Assembly: GCF_000231405.2 (NCBI RefSeq)
Contig: NZ_CP007032.1
Coordinates: 1,054,001 to 1,118,000 of the forward strand
Direction: 5' to 3'
DNA: 64,000 nucleotides
From: Desulfitobacterium metallireducens DSM 15288
GTDB lineage: Bacteria > Bacillota > Desulfitobacteriia > Desulfitobacteriales > Desulfitobacteriaceae
Positions 35,390 to 45,788 of this stretch are shown here, in pieces; the first letter of the stretch is position 1; every line of letters begins with the position of its first letter. A program made the position numbers and the translations under genes. The notes below the pieces were generated by a model. It was not told the origin of the DNA. It made no database searches and saw only the letters and a list, made by a program, of their open reading frames with translations.

Positions 35390-36100
35390 GTGCTCGAAAA
35401 AACCAAGGACTGGAGCGATGATTTTTACGAGAGATGGAAGCCAATTGCAATGGGCTTCGTCAATGAAGCTGAAAAATGCTTACAGTGTGGGAAGTGTACG
35501 GGTCAATGCCCAGCTGCTGCTGTGACGCCGAGTTATAATCCTCGTAAATTGATCCGGGATTTAGTGAATGGCAATATTAAACGGCTCTTATCTAGTGTAG
35601 AACTCTGGCAATGTTTCTTTTGTAGCGGATGTTATTCAACATGTCCAATGGATATAAACTTTCCCTTCTTCATCTTTATGTTGCGGTTAGGTGCGATGAA
35701 TGAAGGCTATGGCTGGGAGGATGTTAAACAACTCGAAGCCTATGCAGAAAAGGATTATTTGAAAACCGGGACCACGGTTTCTTCCTTTGAGAGAAATCCC
35801 TTTGTGGTGGAAACGCTAGGAGATATAGGTGAAATCCGTGAGGCAGCAGGGCTGCCTAGGAAACGCCAAGTCAGCGATCGAGGAATAGCAGAAATTAATA
35901 TGCTATCTGACTTAACCGGGATGACTTCTTTTATGAAGAAAATCGGTGGGGTCGAACTTTTAGATTGCAAGACGTGTACTTCCGAACAGGAGAAAAAGTG
36001 CAAGCATAAACCGATGCCATCACGAGTCGGAAAAATCAAGACCCATTTACGTTTTTATAATTACGGAGAACCGGGAGGGAAAAAGAATGCCGAGGCTTGA
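35390..36100 (+). CDS. HdrC-like 4Fe-4S protein (first copy)
   Basis: This 236-residue heterodisulfide-reductase subunit C homologue has two complete [4Fe-4S] motifs. The first is CLQCGKCTGQCP (C30, C33, C36, C40) and the second is CFFCSGCYSTCP (C75, C78, C81, C85). The C-terminal 100 residues include CKTCTSEQEKKC, an extra Cys group not needed for the clusters. It should pass electrons between the HdrA flavin and the HdrB site. The start is GTG 35390 with GGGGGG upstream. It overlaps hdrB1 by 14 bases. Confidence 0.9.
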   Translation: MLEKTKDWSDDFYERWKPIAMGFVNEAEKCLQCGKCTGQCPAAAVTPSYNPRKLIRDLVNGNIKRLLSSVELWQCFFCSGCYSTCPMDINFPFFIFMLRLGAMNEGYGWEDVKQLEAYAEKDYLKTGTTVSSFERNPFVVETLGDIGEIREAAGLPRKRQVSDRGIAEINMLSDLTGMTSFMKKIGGVELLDCKTCTSEQEKKCKHKPMPSRVGKIKTHLRFYNYGEPGGKKNAEA

Positions 36101-37019
36101 TAAAGTTGCTCAGATTCCTAAACCTAAACAAATCTTTTTTTTCAAAAGCTGTGTAGCGAGTAATAAATATCCGGGTATTGAATCCTGCGGGAAGGAGGCA
36201 CTTGAGATTCTTGGTGTTGAACCGGTAGAATCTGATGAACAGACTTGTTGCGGGGGCTTTGTTACCTTTGCCAATGTGGCTGCTCCTACCGCTTCCATGC
36301 CAGCAGTTGCACGTAACCTTGCTCTTGCTGAGGAAAAGAACCTCGATACCTGTGTTCTCTGCAATGGATGCTGGACGTTTCTTAATGAGTTTGGACATTT
36401 TATGGCCCATAATGAGGAAATCAAGACGAGTATTAATATGATGATGAATATGATGGGCCGAGAATTCAAGGGAACGAGTAATGTTTACCATATTGCTGAG
36501 ATGTTTTATCGGCTTAAAGATGATATCGCCAAGAATGTAAAACGACCGCTTACAGGAGTTAAGATTGCTACACACTATGGTTGCCATTACCTGGGCGGCG
36601 GTAAGTATTCAGCAATTGACGATGCCCAAATGCCAACTTATATGGAAGAATTGATCGAGCTGATGGGAGGGACCGTTGTTCCCTACACTGCTAATCGCGA
36701 GTGCTGTGGTACCGGCTTTACCCAAATTATCAATGGTAAAGATTTATCGCTTGAGCACACCCAGCACAAACTAGATTCTGTTAATGAAGCAGATCCAGAT
36801 CTATTGATCGTTCAATGTCCTTACTGCCATAGTCAGCTTGACCGTGTTCAACAACAGTTGAATTATCGTCAGAATACAAATGATTATCAAACTCCGGTGA
36901 TTCATATTGCTCAGCTTGTGGGGTTAGCCTTGGGACTCGACCTTCCTAAACTTGCCTTTGCAGCCCATATAAGCGGGCGTGAACGGTTGGAAAAAGTTCT
37001 CGACAAGATCGGTCGTTAG
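36087..37019 (+). CDS. HdrB-like CCG-domain protein (first copy)
   Basis: This 310-residue protein is a homologue of the catalytic heterodisulfide-reductase subunit B. It has two cysteine-rich CCG domains: FKSCVASNK, TCCGGF and CNGCWTFL in the first half, and HYGCHYLGGG, ECCGTGF and CPYCHSQLD in the second. In HdrB these bind two non-cubane [4Fe-4S] clusters that act on a disulfide. All motif Cys look present. The substrate here is unlikely to be CoM-S-S-CoB, because no methanogenesis genes are seen. GGAGGG precedes ATG 36087. Confidence 0.9.
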   Translation: MPRLDKVAQIPKPKQIFFFKSCVASNKYPGIESCGKEALEILGVEPVESDEQTCCGGFVTFANVAAPTASMPAVARNLALAEEKNLDTCVLCNGCWTFLNEFGHFMAHNEEIKTSINMMMNMMGREFKGTSNVYHIAEMFYRLKDDIAKNVKRPLTGVKIATHYGCHYLGGGKYSAIDDAQMPTYMEELIELMGGTVVPYTANRECCGTGFTQIINGKDLSLEHTQHKLDSVNEADPDLLIVQCPYCHSQLDRVQQQLNYRQNTNDYQTPVIHIAQLVGLALGLDLPKLAFAAHISGRERLEKVLDKIGR

Positions 37020-37033
37020 AAGGAGGAAAGAAC

Positions 37034-38047
37034 GTGAAGAAAACGTTAGTTATTGGCGGGGGAATAGCTGGAATTACCGCTGCAGAAAAACTTGCTCAAA
37101 ATGGCGGTGAAGTTATCCTTGTTGAAAAGGAAAAAGAACTTGGCGGGAATTTTGCTAAGTTAACCTTCACTTTTCCGGTACTGGGTGATGCAAATTCACT
37201 ACTTAACAAAGAAATTGATACCGCTCAATCTCTTAAGGGAATCGAGATTTTGAAAGAAACAACACTACAGAGTGTCAGCGGAAGTGCTGGGAATTTTACG
37301 GTAGAGCTAAGTACTCCAGCGGGTAAACGATCAGAAAATGTTTCGTCTATTATTGTTGCTCCAGGATTTCATTATATGGAGCCAACAGCCTATACTGAAT
37401 ATTACTATGGCCACAGTCCTAAGGTTGTGACGAGCCTTGAATTCGAGAAGATGGCAGCAGAAGGCCGTTTACCGAAGGGCAAAGCACGAGTGGTTTTTGT
37501 ACACTGTGTTGGCTCTCGGGATAAAGCCAAAGGGTACCGTTATTGCTCAAAAATCTGTTGTTCTTACTCAGCAAAGCATGCCATCATGATGAAGAAAGCA
37601 AATCCAGAATCGAAAAATTATGTTTTCTATATTGATATTCGCGCTTTAGGCAAGGGCTATGAAGAATTTATTCGCTCAGCAATGGAAGAGTACAATGTTC
37701 GCTATATTCGCGGACGTGTTGCCAAAGTGCTCCCTGAAGGAGATAGACTTCTCGTCCGAGCAGAGGATTCTTTAATGGGCAATCCTGTTGAAGTTGAAGC
37801 AGATTTAGTCGTTTTAGCTTCGGCGATGGAGCCGCCCGTGGGTTCACGTGAGCTCGCTCAAATTCTAGGGATTGAGACCGATGAATATGGATTCTTCCAA
37901 GAGATTGAAGCAAACGTTCGTCCCTGTCATTCAACAAAATCGGGAGTATTTTTAGCTGGAAGTTGTACTCAACCCATGGAAATTGCCAGTGCAGTTGCAA
38001 TGGGCGGTTTAGCTGCAACAGAGGCTCTGACTCTGGCACAGCAATAA
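37034..38047 (+). CDS. HdrA-like flavoprotein, short core form
   Basis: This 337-residue protein matches only the thioredoxin-reductase-like FAD core of HdrA. It has VIGGGIAGITAAEKLA at residues 6-21, EKELGGNFAK, VAPGFHYMEP, and a C-terminal FAD motif GVFLAGSCTQPMEIASAV. HCVGSRD followed by YCSKICC supplies the Cys for the [4Fe-4S] cluster bound by HdrA next to FAD. The ferredoxin extensions of methanogen HdrA (about 650 residues) are absent, as in sHdrA of sulfur oxidisers and in QmoA. GTG start with AAGGAGG 8 bases upstream. Confidence 0.9.
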   Translation: MKKTLVIGGGIAGITAAEKLAQNGGEVILVEKEKELGGNFAKLTFTFPVLGDANSLLNKEIDTAQSLKGIEILKETTLQSVSGSAGNFTVELSTPAGKRSENVSSIIVAPGFHYMEPTAYTEYYYGHSPKVVTSLEFEKMAAEGRLPKGKARVVFVHCVGSRDKAKGYRYCSKICCSYSAKHAIMMKKANPESKNYVFYIDIRALGKGYEEFIRSAMEEYNVRYIRGRVAKVLPEGDRLLVRAEDSLMGNPVEVEADLVVLASAMEPPVGSRELAQILGIETDEYGFFQEIEANVRPCHSTKSGVFLAGSCTQPMEIASAVAMGGLAATEALTLAQQ

Positions 38048-38076
38048 GGTAGTGAATCTGTAAGGAAGTGAATTGG

Positions 38077-38490
38077 ATGCGCTTACGTATTCATGAAGAT
38101 GGAATTCGGAATGAGGTCGAAGCAGGGATCCAAAGAACTCTAACGGCTTGTCTTCAATGCTCAAAGTGTGGAGGGGGCTGTGCTCATACTGAAGAGTTCG
38201 ATCTTACGCCACGACAAGTCATCGAATCATTGTTAGACTGTCAGGATGATCAGGTTTTAGACAGTCGAACCATTTGGCTATGCGGACAAAATTGTTCTGG
38301 ATGTCAGATAATCTGCCCAGTGGGGCTGCCCCTAAATGAAATCATGGCAGTGCTTAGAGTAGAGGCGGATAAACGGGGTATTGAGCCGAAATATCAACAA
38401 CCGTCGCTGATCTATCATAAATTTAACCACTGTGCGAAACACCGAAGAGAGGGTGAAGCGAGTGAAAGTATGGATGGACGAGAAGCATAG
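38077..38490 (+). CDS. Small HdrC-like Cys protein between hdrA and hdrC2
   Basis: This 137-residue protein has two Cys clusters: CLQCSKCGGGC near residues 26-36, and CGQNCSGCQIICP near 69-81. The first lacks the usual Pro after the fourth Cys and the second has a variant spacing (CxxxCxxCxxxC), so it is an HdrC relative that may bind one normal and one atypical cluster. ATG 38077 follows AAGGAA by 10 bases. The gene occupies the place held by a hypothetical gene in published sHdr loci. It overlaps the next gene by 29 bases. Confidence 0.75.
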   Translation: MRLRIHEDGIRNEVEAGIQRTLTACLQCSKCGGGCAHTEEFDLTPRQVIESLLDCQDDQVLDSRTIWLCGQNCSGCQIICPVGLPLNEIMAVLRVEADKRGIEPKYQQPSLIYHKFNHCAKHRREGEASESMDGREA

Positions 38491-39046
38491 CTTCTTGGAA
38501 GAGGTTGAAGCCCGTAGTGGGCAGAAGATTCAGGAATGTTACCAATGCAGTAAATGTTCAGGAGGATGCCCATTTTCTGGGATTATGGACTATGCTCCAA
38601 ATTCCATTTTGGAAATGATTGTTTATAATATGAAAGACCAATTACTTTCAAGTAAAGCAATTCAGATGTGTATTCAATGTGGAACATGTGGAGCTCAATG
38701 TCCAGCGGGTTTTGAACTTTATGAAGTTATGAATGTCCTGAGGGCGATGGCAAAAGAAGATGGATATACCACAAATGAGAAAAAAATTCCTAAAATGAAT
38801 GGTATTTTTCTTGGCGAAGTGAGGAACATTGGGCGTATGCATGAAGTAAATTTGATGCTCAAAAATATGCTCAAGCAAGGCCAATTTGTGAAGGATGCAG
38901 TTTCCTTAATCCCGATTGGACCGCCTATGTTTTTAAGAGGAATTATGGGACCGGGCGATATACTGCCCCATAAGATTGAAGGGCAACGTGCTGTAGCTAA
39001 GATCTTTGAGAATGTCGAGAAAATGCAAGGGGGACATGCAAGATGA
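38462..39046 (+). CDS. HdrC-like 4Fe-4S protein (second copy)
   Basis: This 194-residue HdrC homologue has two standard [4Fe-4S] motifs, CYQCSKCSGGCP near residues 27-38 and CIQCGTCGAQCP near 67-78. It lacks the Cys-rich tail of the first copy, so the two are not simple duplicates. I favour GTG 38462 with GAGAGGG 8 bases upstream; the open frame begins at 38432. Its stop overlaps the start of hdrB2 (ATGA), which indicates coupled translation. Confidence 0.88.
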   Translation: MKVWMDEKHSFLEEVEARSGQKIQECYQCSKCSGGCPFSGIMDYAPNSILEMIVYNMKDQLLSSKAIQMCIQCGTCGAQCPAGFELYEVMNVLRAMAKEDGYTTNEKKIPKMNGIFLGEVRNIGRMHEVNLMLKNMLKQGQFVKDAVSLIPIGPPMFLRGIMGPGDILPHKIEGQRAVAKIFENVEKMQGGHAR

Positions 39047-39909
39047 AAACTGGATACTTCCCGGGGTGCTCCCTTCATTCCACCGCTAAAAACTATGAAT
39101 CTTCAACTCAAGCCGTGCTAAAAACATTAGGGGTTCAACTCGAAGAAATTCCAGATTGGAACTGCTGTGGATCAACTCCTGCGCATCAAACAGATCATCT
39201 TTTAGCATTGTCTCTATCTGCCCGTAATTTAGCCTTAGCCGAAAAAGCTGGAATGAAAGATGTTATGGCTCCATGTGCAGCTTGTTTTAATCATTTGCGT
39301 ACTGCTGAGGTGGAATGTGCTAAGGATAAAAAAATTCATCAAGAAGTTCAAAAAGCGATTGAAATGAAGTATAATAATCAAGTTCACGTCGTTAACATTC
39401 TTGAACTCTTAGTCGATCGAATTGGAATTCAGAATATCGGCAAAAAAGTTAAAAAACCGTTATCAGGATTGAAAGTTGCACCCTATTACGGATGTATGTT
39501 AACTCGCCCTGCGAAAATTGCCCAGTTCGATGATCCCATTAATCCACAAAGCATGGATCGTTTATTAGAAACCCTGGGGGCAGAAGTTGTTACATGGGGA
39601 GCGAAAACAGACTGTTGTGGCGCGGCTCATGTGTTAACTCGACAAGAGGTTGTTATTGAACTGACTGGACGAATCGTCCATCAGGCGAAGGAAGCGCAAG
39701 CTGACGTTATTGCAACAGCATGCCCTATGTGCATGTCTAATCTGGATTTGCGGCAAACTGCAGTTGAAAAATCCACAGGTAAAGAAACTAAAGTCCCGGT
39801 TATGTATATTACAGAACTTTTGGGAATGGCTTTTGGAATTCCAAATTCAGAGTTGGGAACACGTAAACATGTCGTGAGTACTGCGGCAGTGACTGCTAAA
39901 ATTAGTTAA
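39043..39909 (+). CDS. HdrB-like CCG-domain protein (second copy)
   Basis: This 288-residue HdrB homologue has two CCG domains: YFPGCSLHSTA, NCCGS and CAACFNHL, then YYGCMLTRP, DCCGAA and CPMCMSNLD. It is closer to the classical HdrB layout (FPGCS start) than the first copy, whose start is degenerate. Two different HdrB subunits around a single HdrA is the arrangement of sHdr. It is the last hdr gene and is followed by an XRE regulator 32 bases on. Confidence 0.9.
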   Translation: MKTGYFPGCSLHSTAKNYESSTQAVLKTLGVQLEEIPDWNCCGSTPAHQTDHLLALSLSARNLALAEKAGMKDVMAPCAACFNHLRTAEVECAKDKKIHQEVQKAIEMKYNNQVHVVNILELLVDRIGIQNIGKKVKKPLSGLKVAPYYGCMLTRPAKIAQFDDPINPQSMDRLLETLGAEVVTWGAKTDCCGAAHVLTRQEVVIELTGRIVHQAKEAQADVIATACPMCMSNLDLRQTAVEKSTGKETKVPVMYITELLGMAFGIPNSELGTRKHVVSTAAVTAKIS

Positions 39910-40511: not shown

Positions 40512-41792
40512 ATGAGCGATAAAATTTTGCATCTATCTACAGAAGAGTTTGACCATGAATTGAAAAGTTATAAAGGGTTACTCGTACTTGATTTCTTTTC
40601 GGAGGATTGTCCACCATGTGCACAATTAGCTCCGATTTACGAGAGAATGGCTGAAAAGTTTCTGCAGGTCAAGTTTGTTAAGATGATGCGCCAAGAGCAT
40701 CGTCCATTAGCAGAACGGTTTAGTGTAAAAGGAAGTCCAACTGTCCTTTTCTTTGAAAACGGGCAAGAAGTTGGGAATAGATTAACCGGATATATTGCAA
40801 AATCCCAAATGCGAATAGCACTGGAAAAGCTTCTTGGGATTGAACCAGAAGAAATCAAAAAAGAAGTTGTTGAAGCCGATGTACTTGTTTTAGGCGGAGG
40901 TCCGGCAGGATTAACTACAGCGATTTATGCTTCTCGTTCTAGATTACGGACGATTGTGATTGAAGAAGGGATTGCTGGTGGTCAAGCCGCAACAACGTAT
41001 CATATCGCGAATTATCCAGGGACGCCGGGAACGCTTGGCGGTAAAGTTCTCATGGAAAATATGATCACCCAAGCGAAGAGCTTTGGAACTGAAATTCATG
41101 ATCTTAAAGAAGTGTTTAGTATTGATTTAAATGGTAAAACAAAGGAGATTGTTACTGAAGACACAGTTTATCATGCTCCGGTAGTAGTGATTGCAACTGG
41201 TGCAGAATCCCGTCGTCTTCCAGCAGAAGGAGAAGCAGACTTCCGAGGGAATGGAGTTCACTATTGTGCAACCTGTGATGGAGCTATGTACCAAGATGCT
41301 GACAACGTTATCGTTGTCGGTGGAGGTAATTCAGCTGTAGAGGAAGCAGTTTATCTTACTAAATTTGCGAAGCATGTGACAATTCTTCATCAATTTGATC
41401 ATTTCCAAGCATCGAAGACTGCTCAAGAAGAAGCTGCAGCGAATGATAAAATCAGTGTCATTTGGGATTCAGAAGTGCGTTCGCTTCTTGGTGAAAAGCA
41501 TTTGACGGGAGTGAAAATCCAAAATGTCAAGACACATGAAGAGAGCAAAGTTGAAGCAAATGGTGTTTTTGTGTATATTGGCATGCAACCTCGGACCCAA
41601 CTCTTAAAAGATCAATTAAAAATTAACGATTGGGGTTATATTGAATCTGATAGTGAGATGAGGACGAATATTGAAGGCGTTTTTGTCGCTGGCGATGTAC
41701 GGAGTAAGACTGTTCGCCAAGTTGCTACAGCCGTTGGAGATGGAGCTGTTGCAGCTGTTAACGCGGAACGTTATTTAGCCTCTCATAAGTAA
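40512..41792 (+). CDS. Thioredoxin-thioredoxin reductase fusion
   Basis: This 426-residue protein has an N-terminal thioredoxin (residues 1-108, active site EDCPPCAQL rather than WCGPC). A thioredoxin-reductase flavoprotein follows (residues 118-426), with FAD motif VLVLGGGPAGLTTAIYA and redox site CATCDGAMY. The pyridine-nucleotide motif VVGGGNSAVEEA is intact. The segment that normally reads HRRDxFRA is HQFDHFQA, however, so the arginines that hold the NADPH phosphate are missing and NADH or another donor is possible. AAGGAG precedes the ATG. Confidence 0.92.
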   Translation: MSDKILHLSTEEFDHELKSYKGLLVLDFFSEDCPPCAQLAPIYERMAEKFLQVKFVKMMRQEHRPLAERFSVKGSPTVLFFENGQEVGNRLTGYIAKSQMRIALEKLLGIEPEEIKKEVVEADVLVLGGGPAGLTTAIYASRSRLRTIVIEEGIAGGQAATTYHIANYPGTPGTLGGKVLMENMITQAKSFGTEIHDLKEVFSIDLNGKTKEIVTEDTVYHAPVVVIATGAESRRLPAEGEADFRGNGVHYCATCDGAMYQDADNVIVVGGGNSAVEEAVYLTKFAKHVTILHQFDHFQASKTAQEEAAANDKISVIWDSEVRSLLGEKHLTGVKIQNVKTHEESKVEANGVFVYIGMQPRTQLLKDQLKINDWGYIESDSEMRTNIEGVFVAGDVRSKTVRQVATAVGDGAVAAVNAERYLASHK

Positions 41793-41885: not shown

Positions 41886-42044
41886 ATGAACATTGAGTTG
41901 ACGAAAGATGAAGTCGAGATTTTATTGAAATCAGGGAGGCATTGTCTAGGCACTTGTGAAGAAGGTGGACCAGGTCAAGAATGTCCGGATTGCCAGAGGT
42001 TACAGCAAGTGATGGATAAATTGAAAGCCGGAGTGAGTGAATAA
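41886..42044 (+). CDS. Small Cys-rich protein, 52 aa
   Basis: This short protein (MNIELTKDEVEILLK and onwards) has four Cys at positions 20, 24, 33 and 36 (HCLGTC and CPDC), a likely zinc or Fe-S site between two helices. AGGAGG precedes the ATG. Its TAA stop overlaps the ATG of the following flavoprotein gene (TAATG), so the two are tightly coupled. It could be a redox partner or metal-binding chaperone of that reductase (inference from coupling). I do not recognise the family. Confidence 0.72.
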   Translation: MNIELTKDEVEILLKSGRHCLGTCEEGGPGQECPDCQRLQQVMDKLKAGVSE

Positions 42045-42928
42045 TGTTAGAAAACTTTCAATTTAAATCACATTATGAGTTAGCGATTGTAGGATGTGGG
42101 CCCGCAGGTATGGCGGCAGCTCTTAATGCGAAAATTAGGAACCGAGATTTTATCTTTTTGGGGTCTGAGTTGTGTAGTCCCAAACTCTCTAAATCACCTC
42201 AAGTAGATAATTTTTTGGGATTTCCCGAAATCAAAGGGGAAGAATTACGACAGCGGTTTTTAGACCATTTAAAACAAAAGGAAATAATAATCGTCCCTTG
42301 GAAGGTCGCTAATATTTATCCTGGGCCTCCGTTTACTTTGATCGGTAAGGATCAGTCGTTTGAAGCAGATGCAGTAATTCTGGCAACCGGCGTCTCAGTT
42401 CAGAAATTAGTACCTGGAGAAGCCGAATTTTTGGGCCGTGGTGTTGGGTATTGCGCCACCTGTGATGGTCCGCTTTATAAAGGGAAAACAGTTGCAATTA
42501 TTTCTTATGACAAGGAAGGGGAGACTGAGGCAAACTTTATGGCGGATATTTGCTCTACGGTCTACTACATCCCTTTCTATAAAGAAGTTGGGGAACTGGA
42601 TGAACGGATTATTCAGAAGAAGGATAAGGTCAGAGAAATCAAAGGAAATCAGCATGCTGAGACACTTGTGCTCGGGCAGGAGGATCTGAAGGTTGACGGC
42701 GTTTTCCTTTTACGGGATAATTTGCCTGCAGAGCAATTGGTGCCAGATCTACAGATGGAAAAGGGCTCTGTTTCAGTAAACCACCATTTAGAAACGAACA
42801 TTCCGGGTTTGTTTGCGGCAGGCGATTGCACGGGTCAACCTTATCAGCTGATAAAAGCGGCTGGTGAGGGTGGCACTGCATCCCTCCAAGCTATAAAATA
42901 TCTCGATGAACTAAAAAAAGAGAAATAA
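42044..42928 (+). CDS. Thioredoxin-reductase-like flavoprotein lacking the NADPH motif
   Basis: This 294-residue TrxR homologue keeps the FAD-binding VGCGPAGMAAALNA, the redox-active YCATCDGPLYKG near residues 142-153 and the C-terminal FAD motif GLFAAGDCTGQPYQ. The nucleotide-binding glycine motif is replaced by AIISYDKEGETEANF, and no HRRxxxR is seen. Such enzymes include ferredoxin-dependent flavin thioredoxin reductases, which do not use NADPH. A ferredoxin gene lies at 45585. Physiological donor and acceptor are inferred. Confidence 0.88.
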   Translation: MLENFQFKSHYELAIVGCGPAGMAAALNAKIRNRDFIFLGSELCSPKLSKSPQVDNFLGFPEIKGEELRQRFLDHLKQKEIIIVPWKVANIYPGPPFTLIGKDQSFEADAVILATGVSVQKLVPGEAEFLGRGVGYCATCDGPLYKGKTVAIISYDKEGETEANFMADICSTVYYIPFYKEVGELDERIIQKKDKVREIKGNQHAETLVLGQEDLKVDGVFLLRDNLPAEQLVPDLQMEKGSVSVNHHLETNIPGLFAAGDCTGQPYQLIKAAGEGGTASLQAIKYLDELKKEK

Positions 42929-42953: not shown

Positions 42954-42968
42954 AACCCGTTGAGGGTT
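42954..42968 (+). promoter_or_regulatory. Possible CstR-type dyad before the methyltransferase gene
   Basis: AACCC-GTTGA-GGGTT has the same 5-5-5 layout as the stronger sites at 40476 and 61456, but AA replaces TA at the edge. No good promoter is visible beside it, and it may simply be a weak hairpin. Confidence 0.3.
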
Positions 42969-42981
42969 GGGGGGAACAGTT

Positions 42982-43611
42982 GTGTCGACTTTCGAGATTG
43001 TGAAAAGGTATACAGAAGAAAATATTAATTCCAATTTAAGTTGCGGTGGGAACATTCAATATTTGGAGCTAATAGAAGGTGAAAAGGTTCTTGACCTAGG
43101 ATGTGGCCGAGGCGGAGAAACGCTAGAAGCATCAAAGCATGTGGGCAGTAGTGGTTTTGCATGGGGGCTCGATTTAACTCCGCGGATGATTCAACTCGCT
43201 CAGGAACGAGCCAAGCAAGAGCAAGTTGAAAATGTTGATTTCCTAGTAGCTTCAATGGATCAAATTCCCTTAGAAGACAATAGCTTAGATGCTGTCCTCA
43301 GTAATTGTGCGATTAACCATGTTGAGGATAAAGTTACAGTCTATCGTGAGATTTATCGTGTGCTCAAACGGGGTGGGCGTTTTGTGGTTTCAGATATCAT
43401 GACTGAACAGCCCTTGCCCCAAGAGATTAGAGAAGATCCAGAAGCAATTGCAGACTGTTTTGGGGGAGCAATCACAATTCAGGAGTATGAAAATGTTTTA
43501 AAGAATGCAGGCTTTTCCCAAGTCGAAGTGTTTAAAGAACGGCGCTATATGAAAAACGGTTATGAAATGATTAGTCGTACTTTTCAAGGATATAAAGAAC
43601 CTATACTTTAG
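42982..43611 (+). CDS. ArsM-like SAM-dependent methyltransferase
   Basis: This 209-residue class I methyltransferase has SAM motif I VLDLGCGRGGETLEA, LDLTPRM, and the post-motif LSNCAINHVEDK. Cys at about 21, 96 and 148 (LSCGG, SNCAIN, ADCFGG) match the placement of conserved Cys in arsenite methyltransferase-like enzymes. It is shorter than ArsM and may act on another soft nucleophile. GTG 42982 follows GGGGGGA. It is immediately upstream of the five-Cys peptide and the radical SAM gene, so peptide methylation is a possible alternative. Confidence 0.8.
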   Translation: MSTFEIVKRYTEENINSNLSCGGNIQYLELIEGEKVLDLGCGRGGETLEASKHVGSSGFAWGLDLTPRMIQLAQERAKQEQVENVDFLVASMDQIPLEDNSLDAVLSNCAINHVEDKVTVYREIYRVLKRGGRFVVSDIMTEQPLPQEIREDPEAIADCFGGAITIQEYENVLKNAGFSQVEVFKERRYMKNGYEMISRTFQGYKEPIL

Positions 43612-43648
43612 GCAAAAAGATTAAAATTATGAAGGGGGGTGAGCGTTA

Positions 43649-43759
43649 ATGCGTCCAATTACTTCAACATCGTCAACTTGCTGTAACACAAGTCTAGCAC
43701 TTACAGTTGCACAATGTTGCTCGAAGTCTTCCCAAATCGTCGCGGGTTGCCACGACTAA
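43649..43759 (+). CDS. Five-cysteine short peptide, candidate RiPP precursor
   Basis: This 36-residue peptide starts MRPITSTSST and contains CCNTSLALTVAQCC, a third part SKSSQIVAG, and ends CHD. Cys lie at 11, 12, 23, 24 and 34. Six Ser and five Thr surround the Cys, which are the usual thioether or sactionine partners. The ribosome site GGGGGGTGAG is very strong. It lies directly in front of a radical SAM/SPASM enzyme and behind a methyltransferase. No double-Gly or Met leader cleavage site is seen, so the leader would be very short, which weakens the RiPP reading. Confidence 0.6.
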   Translation: MRPITSTSSTCCNTSLALTVAQCCSKSSQIVAGCHD

Positions 43760-43765
43760 TTAAGT

Positions 43766-43847
43766 GGCGGCAGAGAAAGTCTGCCGCCTTTTCCACACTG
43801 CGCATCAGCGATTTATTTATCGCTAAGCTCGGCACAAGCCGAGTTTT
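43766..43847 (+). terminator. Two tandem hairpins between peptide and maturase genes
   Basis: GGCGGCAGA/TCTGCCGCC with loop GAAAG, followed by TTTT (43766-43792), and CTCGGC/GCCGAG with loop ACAA, followed by TTTT (43828-43847). They would let the peptide be made in large excess over the downstream enzyme. Confidence 0.85.
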
Positions 43848-43933
43848 CTTCATATCATGATATTTCCTATTGAGGAAATTGATATACGAATAAAGAATAA
43901 AACGAAATTTGTTTATGAGAAAAGGGTGGGGAA

Positions 43934-45292
43934 ATGTACTTTAGCCAATATAATTTGATTTTGCCGATGAAAGAAAATCCGAAGTTTCCATATGCGATTT
44001 TGAACTCGCTTTCAGGAGGGTTTGATCTTGTTCCTCAGGAAGATTATGAGAAACTTCAATCTTTGAAGCGAGGAGAAGTTGTCGAAGATACTGAATTTTT
44101 AAATTACCTACAAAGCCGAGGTTACCTTTATCAGGATAAGGAGGCCGAAAATAAACGTCTCCAAGAACGGTACCCAGAATTTAATAATGCGCTTAATGAA
44201 ACAGCACCACAAGTGCTTTTCGTACCCACATATACCTGTAATTTAGCTTGCCCATATTGTTATGAAAACGGGATTAAACACAAAAAGGATTTGGTTACGA
44301 AGGAAGTTGTAGATGCGTTCTTTAACCATTTGGCCCAGAAGTTTCCGAATCGTAAACCTTTCATTACCTTGTTTGGTGGAGAGGCTTTAAAAAATTCGAT
44401 AAAACAAAAGGAAATGATCGATTATATCGTGAAAGAAGCCGCCCGAGGCGGATATGCTATTTCAGCTGTTTCAAATGGCTACGATTTGAAGGAATATCTG
44501 GATATCTTACAGCAAGCGGAGATTAAAGAAATTCAGGTGACGGTTGATGGCCCTAAGCCGGTTCATGATCTACGTCGTCCTACTGCAGGAGGACAAGGAA
44601 CATATGACCGTATTATGGAGGGACTCACAGAGGCAATTAAACGAGAAATTCCGATCAATCTTCGTGCCGTCGTCGATAAAACAAATTTTGAGGATCTTGT
44701 GACCTTAGCTGAGGACTTCGAGCGTCGAGGTTGGCTGGATTTTCCGCCCCAACGGTTTAAAACGGCAATTGGCCGTAATTATGAATTGTTTGAATGCTAT
44801 GCCACTCCACAACATTTACTCGGGCAGGCTGACCATTGGGCTATGTTTATCGAGCTGGCCGAAAAATATCCTATTCTCAAAAAGTTCCACAAGCCGGAAT
44901 TTAAAGGGATCAATCACCTAGTTCAGACGGGGGAACTTTATTTACCAACTTATGATACATGCCCAGCATGTAAAACGGAATGGGTTTATGATCTCTACGG
45001 CGATATTTATGGTTGTACGGCAAGCGCCGGACAGGATGAATTTAAGCTCGGCACTTTTTATCCTGAGTACACCCTTAAGGCTAATGAAGCGAAAGAATGG
45101 GAAGATAGAAGTGTCTTAACCATTCCGGAATGTAAGGATTGCGATGTTAGCTTAATTTGTGGAGGCGGCTGTGGTGCTATTGCTAAAGACCGGACAGGTC
45201 GTGTGCAAGGACCGGATTGTCGGCCGATTAAAGAAATCCTGACGTTAGGTCTAAAGTATTATGGTGATGATCTTCTCAAAATGGGATTTTAA
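43934..45292 (+). CDS. Radical SAM/SPASM peptide-modifying enzyme
   Basis: This 452-residue enzyme has the radical SAM motif TYTCNLACPYCYEN near residues 98-111 (CxxxCxxC, binding the SAM-cleaving [4Fe-4S] cluster). A C-terminal SPASM region carries CPACKTEW, GCTAS, CKDCDVSLICGGGC and DCRP. These are the auxiliary-cluster Cys found in sactionine and ranthipeptide maturases. The N-terminal 90 residues (NLILPM, YAILNSLSGGFDLV) resemble the usual maturase lead-in. It follows the five-Cys peptide and precedes a ferredoxin gene. The substrate is inferred to be that peptide. Confidence 0.9.
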   Translation: MYFSQYNLILPMKENPKFPYAILNSLSGGFDLVPQEDYEKLQSLKRGEVVEDTEFLNYLQSRGYLYQDKEAENKRLQERYPEFNNALNETAPQVLFVPTYTCNLACPYCYENGIKHKKDLVTKEVVDAFFNHLAQKFPNRKPFITLFGGEALKNSIKQKEMIDYIVKEAARGGYAISAVSNGYDLKEYLDILQQAEIKEIQVTVDGPKPVHDLRRPTAGGQGTYDRIMEGLTEAIKREIPINLRAVVDKTNFEDLVTLAEDFERRGWLDFPPQRFKTAIGRNYELFECYATPQHLLGQADHWAMFIELAEKYPILKKFHKPEFKGINHLVQTGELYLPTYDTCPACKTEWVYDLYGDIYGCTASAGQDEFKLGTFYPEYTLKANEAKEWEDRSVLTIPECKDCDVSLICGGGCGAIAKDRTGRVQGPDCRPIKEILTLGLKYYGDDLLKMGF

Positions 45293-45306
45293 AGGGGAGT
45301 GCTCAT

Positions 45307-45507
45307 ATGCCAAGCTATGATATGGTTTGTCAGGAGTGCGGGCATAAATTCTCAGTTTTTTGTAGTATAAGCCAAAAAGATCAGCAGAAGTGTCCGCAAT
45401 GTGAGAGTTCGAAGATTAGCCAGAGATTTACGGCAGTTAATATTGGTGGTGGCAAAAGTAACAGTAGTAGCAGTGGGGCGTCAGTTCCAACATCAGGGTT
45501 TGGCTGA
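45307..45507 (+). CDS. FmdB-type zinc-ribbon protein (second copy)
   Basis: This 66-residue protein has CQECGHKF and CPQCESSKI zinc-ribbon halves, and a Ser/Gly-rich tail like that of the copy at 921 but without extra Cys. It is 14 bases after the radical SAM gene and probably in its operon. The family function is not settled. Confidence 0.82.
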   Translation: MPSYDMVCQECGHKFSVFCSISQKDQQKCPQCESSKISQRFTAVNIGGGKSNSSSSGASVPTSGFG

Positions 45508-45584
45508 GCAGGCTGCTAAGGAACCGTGAGTTCCTTTTAAGATAGATAAAGTATAGGAAAGGGCTATAGAGGGGAGGAATTTGA

Positions 45585-45788
45585 GTGTCCGCGTATATTC
45601 TTGAAAAACTCTGTCGAGGTTGTCAGAGGTGCGTTCATGCCTGTCCGCAAAACGCCATTCAAATGCTGTCTCATATGGCAATCGTCAACCCAAGGCTATG
45701 TATCGAATGTGAAGAGTGTATGGAAGTATGTATGCAAGGAGCTATTACTTTCCGCGAGAATAGGGAGGAGGTCAGCACTCATGGATGA
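45585..45788 (+). CDS. 2[4Fe-4S] ferredoxin
   Basis: This 67-residue ferredoxin carries CRGCQRCVHACP and CIECEECMEVCM, two full CxxCxxCxxxC motifs, each fitting one [4Fe-4S] cluster. GTG 45585 follows GGGGAGG. It is a plausible electron donor for the radical SAM enzyme upstream or for the NADPH-independent reductase (inference). It overlaps the next small gene by 8 bases. Confidence 0.9.
   Translation: MSAYILEKLCRGCQRCVHACPQNAIQMLSHMAIVNPRLCIECEECMEVCMQGAITFRENREEVSTHG

Follow-up and report, generated by a model that had tools for sequence, protein, structure and literature searches.

Peptides matured by radical S-adenosylmethionine (SAM) enzymes have mostly been studied as secreted antibiotics or as cofactors of the pyrroloquinoline quinone (PQQ)/mycofactocin type. 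Among ribosomally synthesized and post-translationally modified peptides (RiPPs), the SCIFF/CteB (ScfB) ranthipeptide systems (TIGR03974; PapB, NF047865) join a maturase with a SPASM domain and an N-terminus resembling a RiPP recognition element (RRE) to a short, Cys-rich precursor encoded directly upstream. Arsenosugar (ArsM/ArsS) and arsinothricin (ArsM/ArsL) pathways pair an ArsM-type methyltransferase with a radical SAM enzyme, for which we know of no report of a ribosomal peptide substrate. Here we describe a cassette that resembles both arrangements, located in a 64,000-nucleotide stretch of the Desulfitobacterium metallireducens DSM 15288 genome (hereafter the window). It encodes a 36-residue candidate precursor peptide, a radical SAM/SPASM enzyme, an ArsM-like SAM methyltransferase and a thioredoxin-thioredoxin reductase (Trx-TrxR) fusion. 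Whereas SCIFF has six Cys in 45 residues, the cassette peptide has five Cys, arranged CC/CC/C, and always ends in GCH[DN], and, unlike SCIFF/CteB loci, the cassette always includes the methyltransferase and nearly always Trx-TrxR. From the ArsM/ArsS and ArsM/ArsL pairs it differs in that a SPASM maturase is present together with a dedicated precursor. Radical SAM/SPASM RiPPs are a known kind, while this precursor, the maturase clade and the constant partners appear to be new: no matching NCBIfam or Pfam family or open-access paper was found for the precursor, the maturase clade or the partnership of ArsM-like methyltransferase and Trx-TrxR, although an earlier listing of the cluster is possible.

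Judged by its sequence, the 36-residue open reading frame (ORF) is a real gene under strong purifying selection, because it has a near-consensus ribosome site, shows a selective signature in its codons and has a homologue upstream of every readable intact relative of the enzyme. An earlier, sequence-only reading of this DNA had described its Cys pattern as CC-N10-CC-N9-C and its ribosome site as strong; the pattern is exactly that, and the site (AAGGGGGGTGA) is close to consensus, with a near-perfect AGGAGGTGA Shine-Dalgarno sequence at the matching place in relatives. The peptide comprises an N-terminal M[RK]..[TSA] stretch, a variable first Cys group and a fixed C-terminal core, AQCCSKSSQIVAGCHD. 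Homologues share the core AQCC[SA]K.[SA][KQR][VIL][VI].GCH[DN] at the C-terminus of the protein, each terminating one residue past the core His, and 11 alignment columns are invariant, including A-Q-C-C, K, S and G-C-H. Across the family, only the second CC and the final Cys never change; the first pair varies, being C-S-C in L025 and C..C in L096/L099/L101. Pairwise comparison of the last 19 codons gave 3608 differences, of which 2545 are at third positions, and a pN/pS of 0.145. The window peptide had no Pfam match, 20 peptides of this type had no NCBIfam match even at E 10, and peptide strings of this type were not found in the open-access literature, in agreement with the claim that the peptide is unlike SCIFF or other known precursor types.

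Conservation of the peptide beside orthologues of the enzyme was a check set beforehand, and it was passed at 23/23, 19/19 and 39/39 loci. The first set derives from 27 enzyme relatives fetched from species genomes, the complete ones 47-74% identical; wherever enough upstream DNA was present (23 of the 27), a homologous peptide lies 50-243 nt upstream of the enzyme, well beyond what chance would give. Twelve genomes of the window's family carry the enzyme, whole or in part, and G008 carries a remnant. In that family a peptide-model search independent of the enzyme returned exactly the same 12 genomes and not G008. In a draw of 398 genomes from the phylum, all 19 full-length matches above 550 bits have the peptide, and two weak relatives (G202 and G136, below 280 bits) lack it. 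These comparisons indicate that peptide and enzyme are inseparable across many Bacillota families; phyla beyond Bacillota were sampled through a single pattern scan. The G008 remnant (G008:C3:1686092-1686499, enzyme residues ~300-436) has no peptide, an apparent joint loss. The nearest relative outside the family, L104 (G202), has a different small Cys peptide upstream (...TCGMICSPYCVKSTPS), perhaps a sister precursor type. At L119 (G014:C17) a second peptide copy stands beside nadA/nadC-like genes with neither enzyme nor methyltransferase adjoining; contamination of G014 is 8%.

To tally the composition of the cassette, each partner was compared by tblastn with 39 peptide loci, of which several are near-duplicates. 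The enzyme is directly downstream of the peptide in 39/39, and the methyltransferase is likewise present in 39/39, directly upstream in 37 and downstream in two (L017, L117). Trx-TrxR accompanies 36 of the 39, two of the three misses being contig ends, and a DUF5714 gene occurs in 22. No exporter, leader peptidase/protease or immunity gene recurs near the loci compared, which extends to relatives the claim that no exporter or protease adjoins the window genes; the conserved exporter, leader peptidase or immunity gene that would mark a secreted RiPP or bacteriocin is therefore lacking. Two marks of a RiPP system are present: a precursor gene conserved beside the enzyme, and an enzyme with a CX3CX2C motif, SPASM Cys and a recognition domain (RRE by topology).

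The CX3CX2C motif, the full set of SPASM Cys and an RNYELFEC motif are invariant across 18 sequences (alignment A2), and two auxiliary clusters are expected in the SPASM region. The window enzyme scores far below the cut-offs of all NCBIfam models: 148/600 bits for CefB (NF038107), 146/525 for TIGR04463, 109/340 for PapB and 86/425 for the SCIFF maturase (TIGR03974), and the L021 and L024 enzymes are likewise below. CefB and TIGR04463, both Cys-rich peptide maturases, are the best-scoring models over the radical SAM region; in contrast to those systems, the cassette has no peptide with a Cys at every fifth position and its enzyme is below their membership cut-offs. Against assignment to SCIFF or the ranthipeptides stand the low score, the five Cys and the absence of a precursor-model match. 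The maturase thus falls in no named NCBIfam family and in no clade with a known substrate, as the sequence-only reading required. An AlphaFold2 model (predicted local distance difference test, pLDDT, 82) has CteB as its nearest PDB fold (5why/5wgg, E 5e-17, full-length match), and CteB is also the top PDB match by sequence. Residues 1-90 of the model form three strands followed by three helices, and this RRE-like topology together with the CteB match points to an RRE; thioether chemistry is likely from the same model. The enzyme occurs once in the genome (3.18 Mb, single contig). Searches of plasmids and phages gave only radical SAM proteins of ~25-29% identity, and no viral relative was found.

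The METHYLTRANSFERASE of the cassette is ArsM-like, its closest solved relatives being arsenic methyltransferases (ArsM PDB 4kw7/4fr0 aligned). In CmArsM the As(III)-binding residues are C72, C174 and C224, and the first methylation requires every one of them (PMC3877260). Their equivalents are kept in 36-37 of 37 operon enzymes by motif, and alignments agree; the ArsM-like Cys proposed for this protein are therefore real and conserved. In other respects it departs from ArsM (NF008823/PRK11873), with which it shares the fold family: it is ~210 aa, has no C-terminal domain, lacks the N-terminal CC of true ArsM (missing in 37/37), scores 203 bits against a cut-off of 263 and sits in a peptide operon. 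The operon methyltransferases group together in a single clade, with canonical and other ArsM-like proteins outside it (support 100/99). A full-length ArsM is encoded separately in the window genome (G000:C1:730692), and the cassette methyltransferase therefore has another job. In L151 (G357:C5:48909-49631) the ArsM-like methyltransferase lies within a far longer open frame of 741-790 aa.

The gene order methyltransferase, peptide, radical SAM/SPASM enzyme, FmdB and ferredoxin was found as proposed (Table 1). The proposed limits, 42982-45788, enclose the core genes but miss the Trx-TrxR fusion (40512-41792) and a cassette-type DUF5714 gene elsewhere in the genome (G000:C1:2470527-2471048).

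Table 1. Coordinates of the cassette and adjoining features in the window
Feature	Position	Strand	Remarks
Trx-TrxR fusion, 426 aa	40512..41792	+	Trx active site DCPPC, TrxR CATC
ArsM-like SAM methyltransferase, 209 aa	42982..43611	+	GTG start; in-frame TTG at 42967 possible
Shine-Dalgarno of peptide gene, AAGGGGGGTGA	43632..43642	+	read in sequence
36-aa precursor peptide MRPITSTSSTCCNTSLALTVAQCCSKSSQIVAGCHD	43649..43759	+	
9-bp GC-rich RNA hairpin, then TTTT	43766..43788	+	just 3' of peptide stop codon
Radical SAM/SPASM peptide maturase, 452 aa	43934..45292	+	PF04055 match
RRE-like N-terminal domain of maturase, residues 1-90	43934..44203	+	predicted-model secondary structure
CX3CX2C radical SAM motif: C102, C106, C109	44237..44260	+	invariant in alignment A2
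SPASM cysteines of maturase	44960..45220	+	C343-X17-C361, C400-X2-C403-X5-C409-X3-C413, C429; invariant in A2
FmdB-type zinc ribbon protein	45307..45507	+	TIGR02605 above cut-off
2[4Fe-4S] ferredoxin	45585..45788	+	Fer4 Pfam matches; possible electron donor

The window Trx-TrxR fusion matches Pfam Thioredoxin and Pyr_redox_2 and exceeds the TIGR01292 cut-off; across cassette fusions the Trx motif is DC[PAS]PC. In the L019-L031 lineages the enzyme carries DUF5714 (PF18978) as a C-terminal fusion, whereas other lineages encode it separately. Genes of the HGPE[HY]H type occur in 9/12 peptide-bearing genomes of the family against 1/34 others (Fisher p 1.9e-6, relatedness not corrected). The cassette DUF5714 has the family and the conserved Cys spacing in common with MbdU/DUF5714 and C-GCAxxG-C-C proteins; in contrast to MbdU, no selenocysteine was noted in the cassette copies, and fusion to a radical SAM enzyme occurs in several lineages. 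A fairly confident model (pLDDT 81) had no PDB match below E 1.7, and DUF5714 was not found in the open-access literature. At locus L120 of the window genome (G000:C1:2465249-2471048), only a few kb separate the HGPE-type gene from selD and a selA-like gene, as in G001 and G002. The Cys-rich DUF1847 is a frequent neighbour of the cassette or of DUF5714 (L021, L024, L116, L122).

FmdB and ferredoxin do follow the enzyme in the window, but both were rejected as cassette members because the locus comparison shows no conservation: the FmdB cluster is in only eight compared loci and the ferredoxin cluster in only four others. Arsenic-type neighbours comprise ArsR and an ArsP_1 permease in L024 and ArsP_1 halves in L026-L028; L020 is flanked by Pst, ArsR-family and LMWPc (LMW-phosphatase/ArsC-type) genes. 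Upstream in the window, 36087-39909 encodes HdrB, HdrA, HdrC, HdrC and HdrB homologues, a possible disulfide-reducing complex partly common to L008, L009, L011 and L018. Between Trx-TrxR and the methyltransferase (41886-42928), a 52-aa Cys-rich ORF (CLGTC...CPDC) overlaps the start of a second TrxR-like flavoprotein, and a related 50-aa Cys-rich ORF precedes the cassette in L006.

The hairpin after the peptide stop codon is unusually stable (z = -4.6; none of 200 shuffles was equally stable), and a strong hairpin stands at the corresponding position in most relatives folded. A terminator scan did not call it as an intrinsic terminator, because only four T follow. It is a possible attenuator between peptide and enzyme, and such a hairpin would be expected in a RiPP operon, where the precursor must exceed the enzyme.

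It is very probable, from conservation and adjacency, that the peptide is the substrate of this radical SAM/SPASM enzyme. Its N-terminal stretch would be bound by the N-terminal recognition-like domain of the maturase, and the maturase would cross-link the C-terminal core (AQCCSKxSKxVxGCHD), probably by forming thioether bonds at Cys, as CteB-family enzymes do; RRE-guided modification of this core is what we infer most strongly. The mature peptide would stay intracellular, where leftover thiols, the terminal His and the carboxylate may coordinate a thiophilic metal(loid), with arsenic the most likely candidate. This element could then be methylated by the ArsM-like enzyme while in the peptide or close to it, and between turns the Trx-TrxR fusion would re-reduce thiols that had become oxidised. 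DUF5714, itself Cys-rich, may aid metal or peptide hand-over, a role to which the evidence points weakly. A thiophilic metal(loid) is proposed mainly because of the ArsM Cys triad and the dedicated Trx-TrxR fusion, and ArsM chemistry requires thiol re-reduction. For the whole chain, in which an intracellular RiPP captures a thiophilic metal(loid) through its thiols, with methyl transfer at the bound element and thioredoxin recycling, we judge the chance to be slightly below even; a metalloid role of the cassette as such is plausible, with odds somewhat below even. In its most specific form the proposal is tentative and on balance unlikely: the cross-linked peptide would be an intracellular metalloid cofactor or scavenger that holds As(III) (or similar) while a dedicated three-Cys ArsM-like enzyme methylates it, possibly yielding a metalloid-containing RiPP served by a thioredoxin system of its own. 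Several points weigh against the proposed chain. The methyltransferase may act on something other than a metalloid, because it lacks the N-terminal CC and the ArsM C-terminal domain and is below the cut-off. SPASM enzymes also form C-C and ether links, and a CteB-like fold is therefore no proof of thioether formation. DUF5714 was not found near ~40% of loci. The arsenic signal of the neighbourhood, taken alone, appears weak, because it is sparse (about three lineages) and the ArsR and ArsP families are common.

The constant adjacency of methyltransferase and peptide (39/39 loci) would also suit an enzyme that modifies the peptide itself, for example by Cys S-methylation or by C-terminal methylation after cross-linking, with the ArsM-like Cys as a relic or as a holder of peptide thiols. 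Tailoring methyltransferases are common in RiPP clusters; yet three arsenite-coordinating Cys, needless for a peptide methylase, are kept over large divergence, and a dedicated Trx-TrxR would be unexpected for simple tailoring, so that we regard peptide methylation as unlikely. The near-constant Trx-TrxR fusion (36/39) and the vicinal CC of the core would also fit a mature peptide that cycles between dithiol and disulfide as a small redox-carrying cofactor, made with the help of the methyltransferase and reduced by Trx-TrxR and, in Desulfitobacteriaceae, by the upstream HdrABC-like proteins. The Hdr homologues are upstream in several relatives too, but most other lineages have none, and the ArsM Cys triad is left unexplained; such a carrier seems quite unlikely.

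The stable hairpin of the window, which most relatives folded share, raises the question of whether the ORF encodes no substrate but, through its Cys codons, acts as the leader peptide of an attenuator that controls transcription of the enzyme gene. Similar hairpins are expected in RiPP operons as well, however; several residues other than Cys (A, Q, K, S, G, H) do not vary, and codon changes are synonymous; the peptide still adjoins the enzyme where the methyltransferase is downstream (L017, L117); and the enzyme carries an RRE-like domain, all of which makes a mere leader highly improbable. A place in selenium metabolism, with selenophosphate from SelD, would account for the position of selD, immediately upstream of the L117 peptide and close to L024, for the proximity of the window genome's cassette-type DUF5714 to selD and selA, and for the kinship of DUF5714 with the double selenoprotein MbdU. 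SelD is above cut-off in 262/398 genomes of the phylum draw, yet five cassette genomes (G165, G199, G304, G434, G248) have none above it, and because of these five selenium dependence was rejected as a requirement; a role in selenium metabolism is scarcely probable, although a lineage-specific link is possible.

If the proposed metal(loid)-binding chain is true, the cassette would connect the chemistry of RiPPs with the metabolism of metalloids or thiols in anaerobes, many of which come from metal-rich sites. The cassette constitutes a defined gene set and suggests possible functions for DUF5714 and for those ArsM-like proteins that are currently annotated by homology as arsenite methyltransferase.

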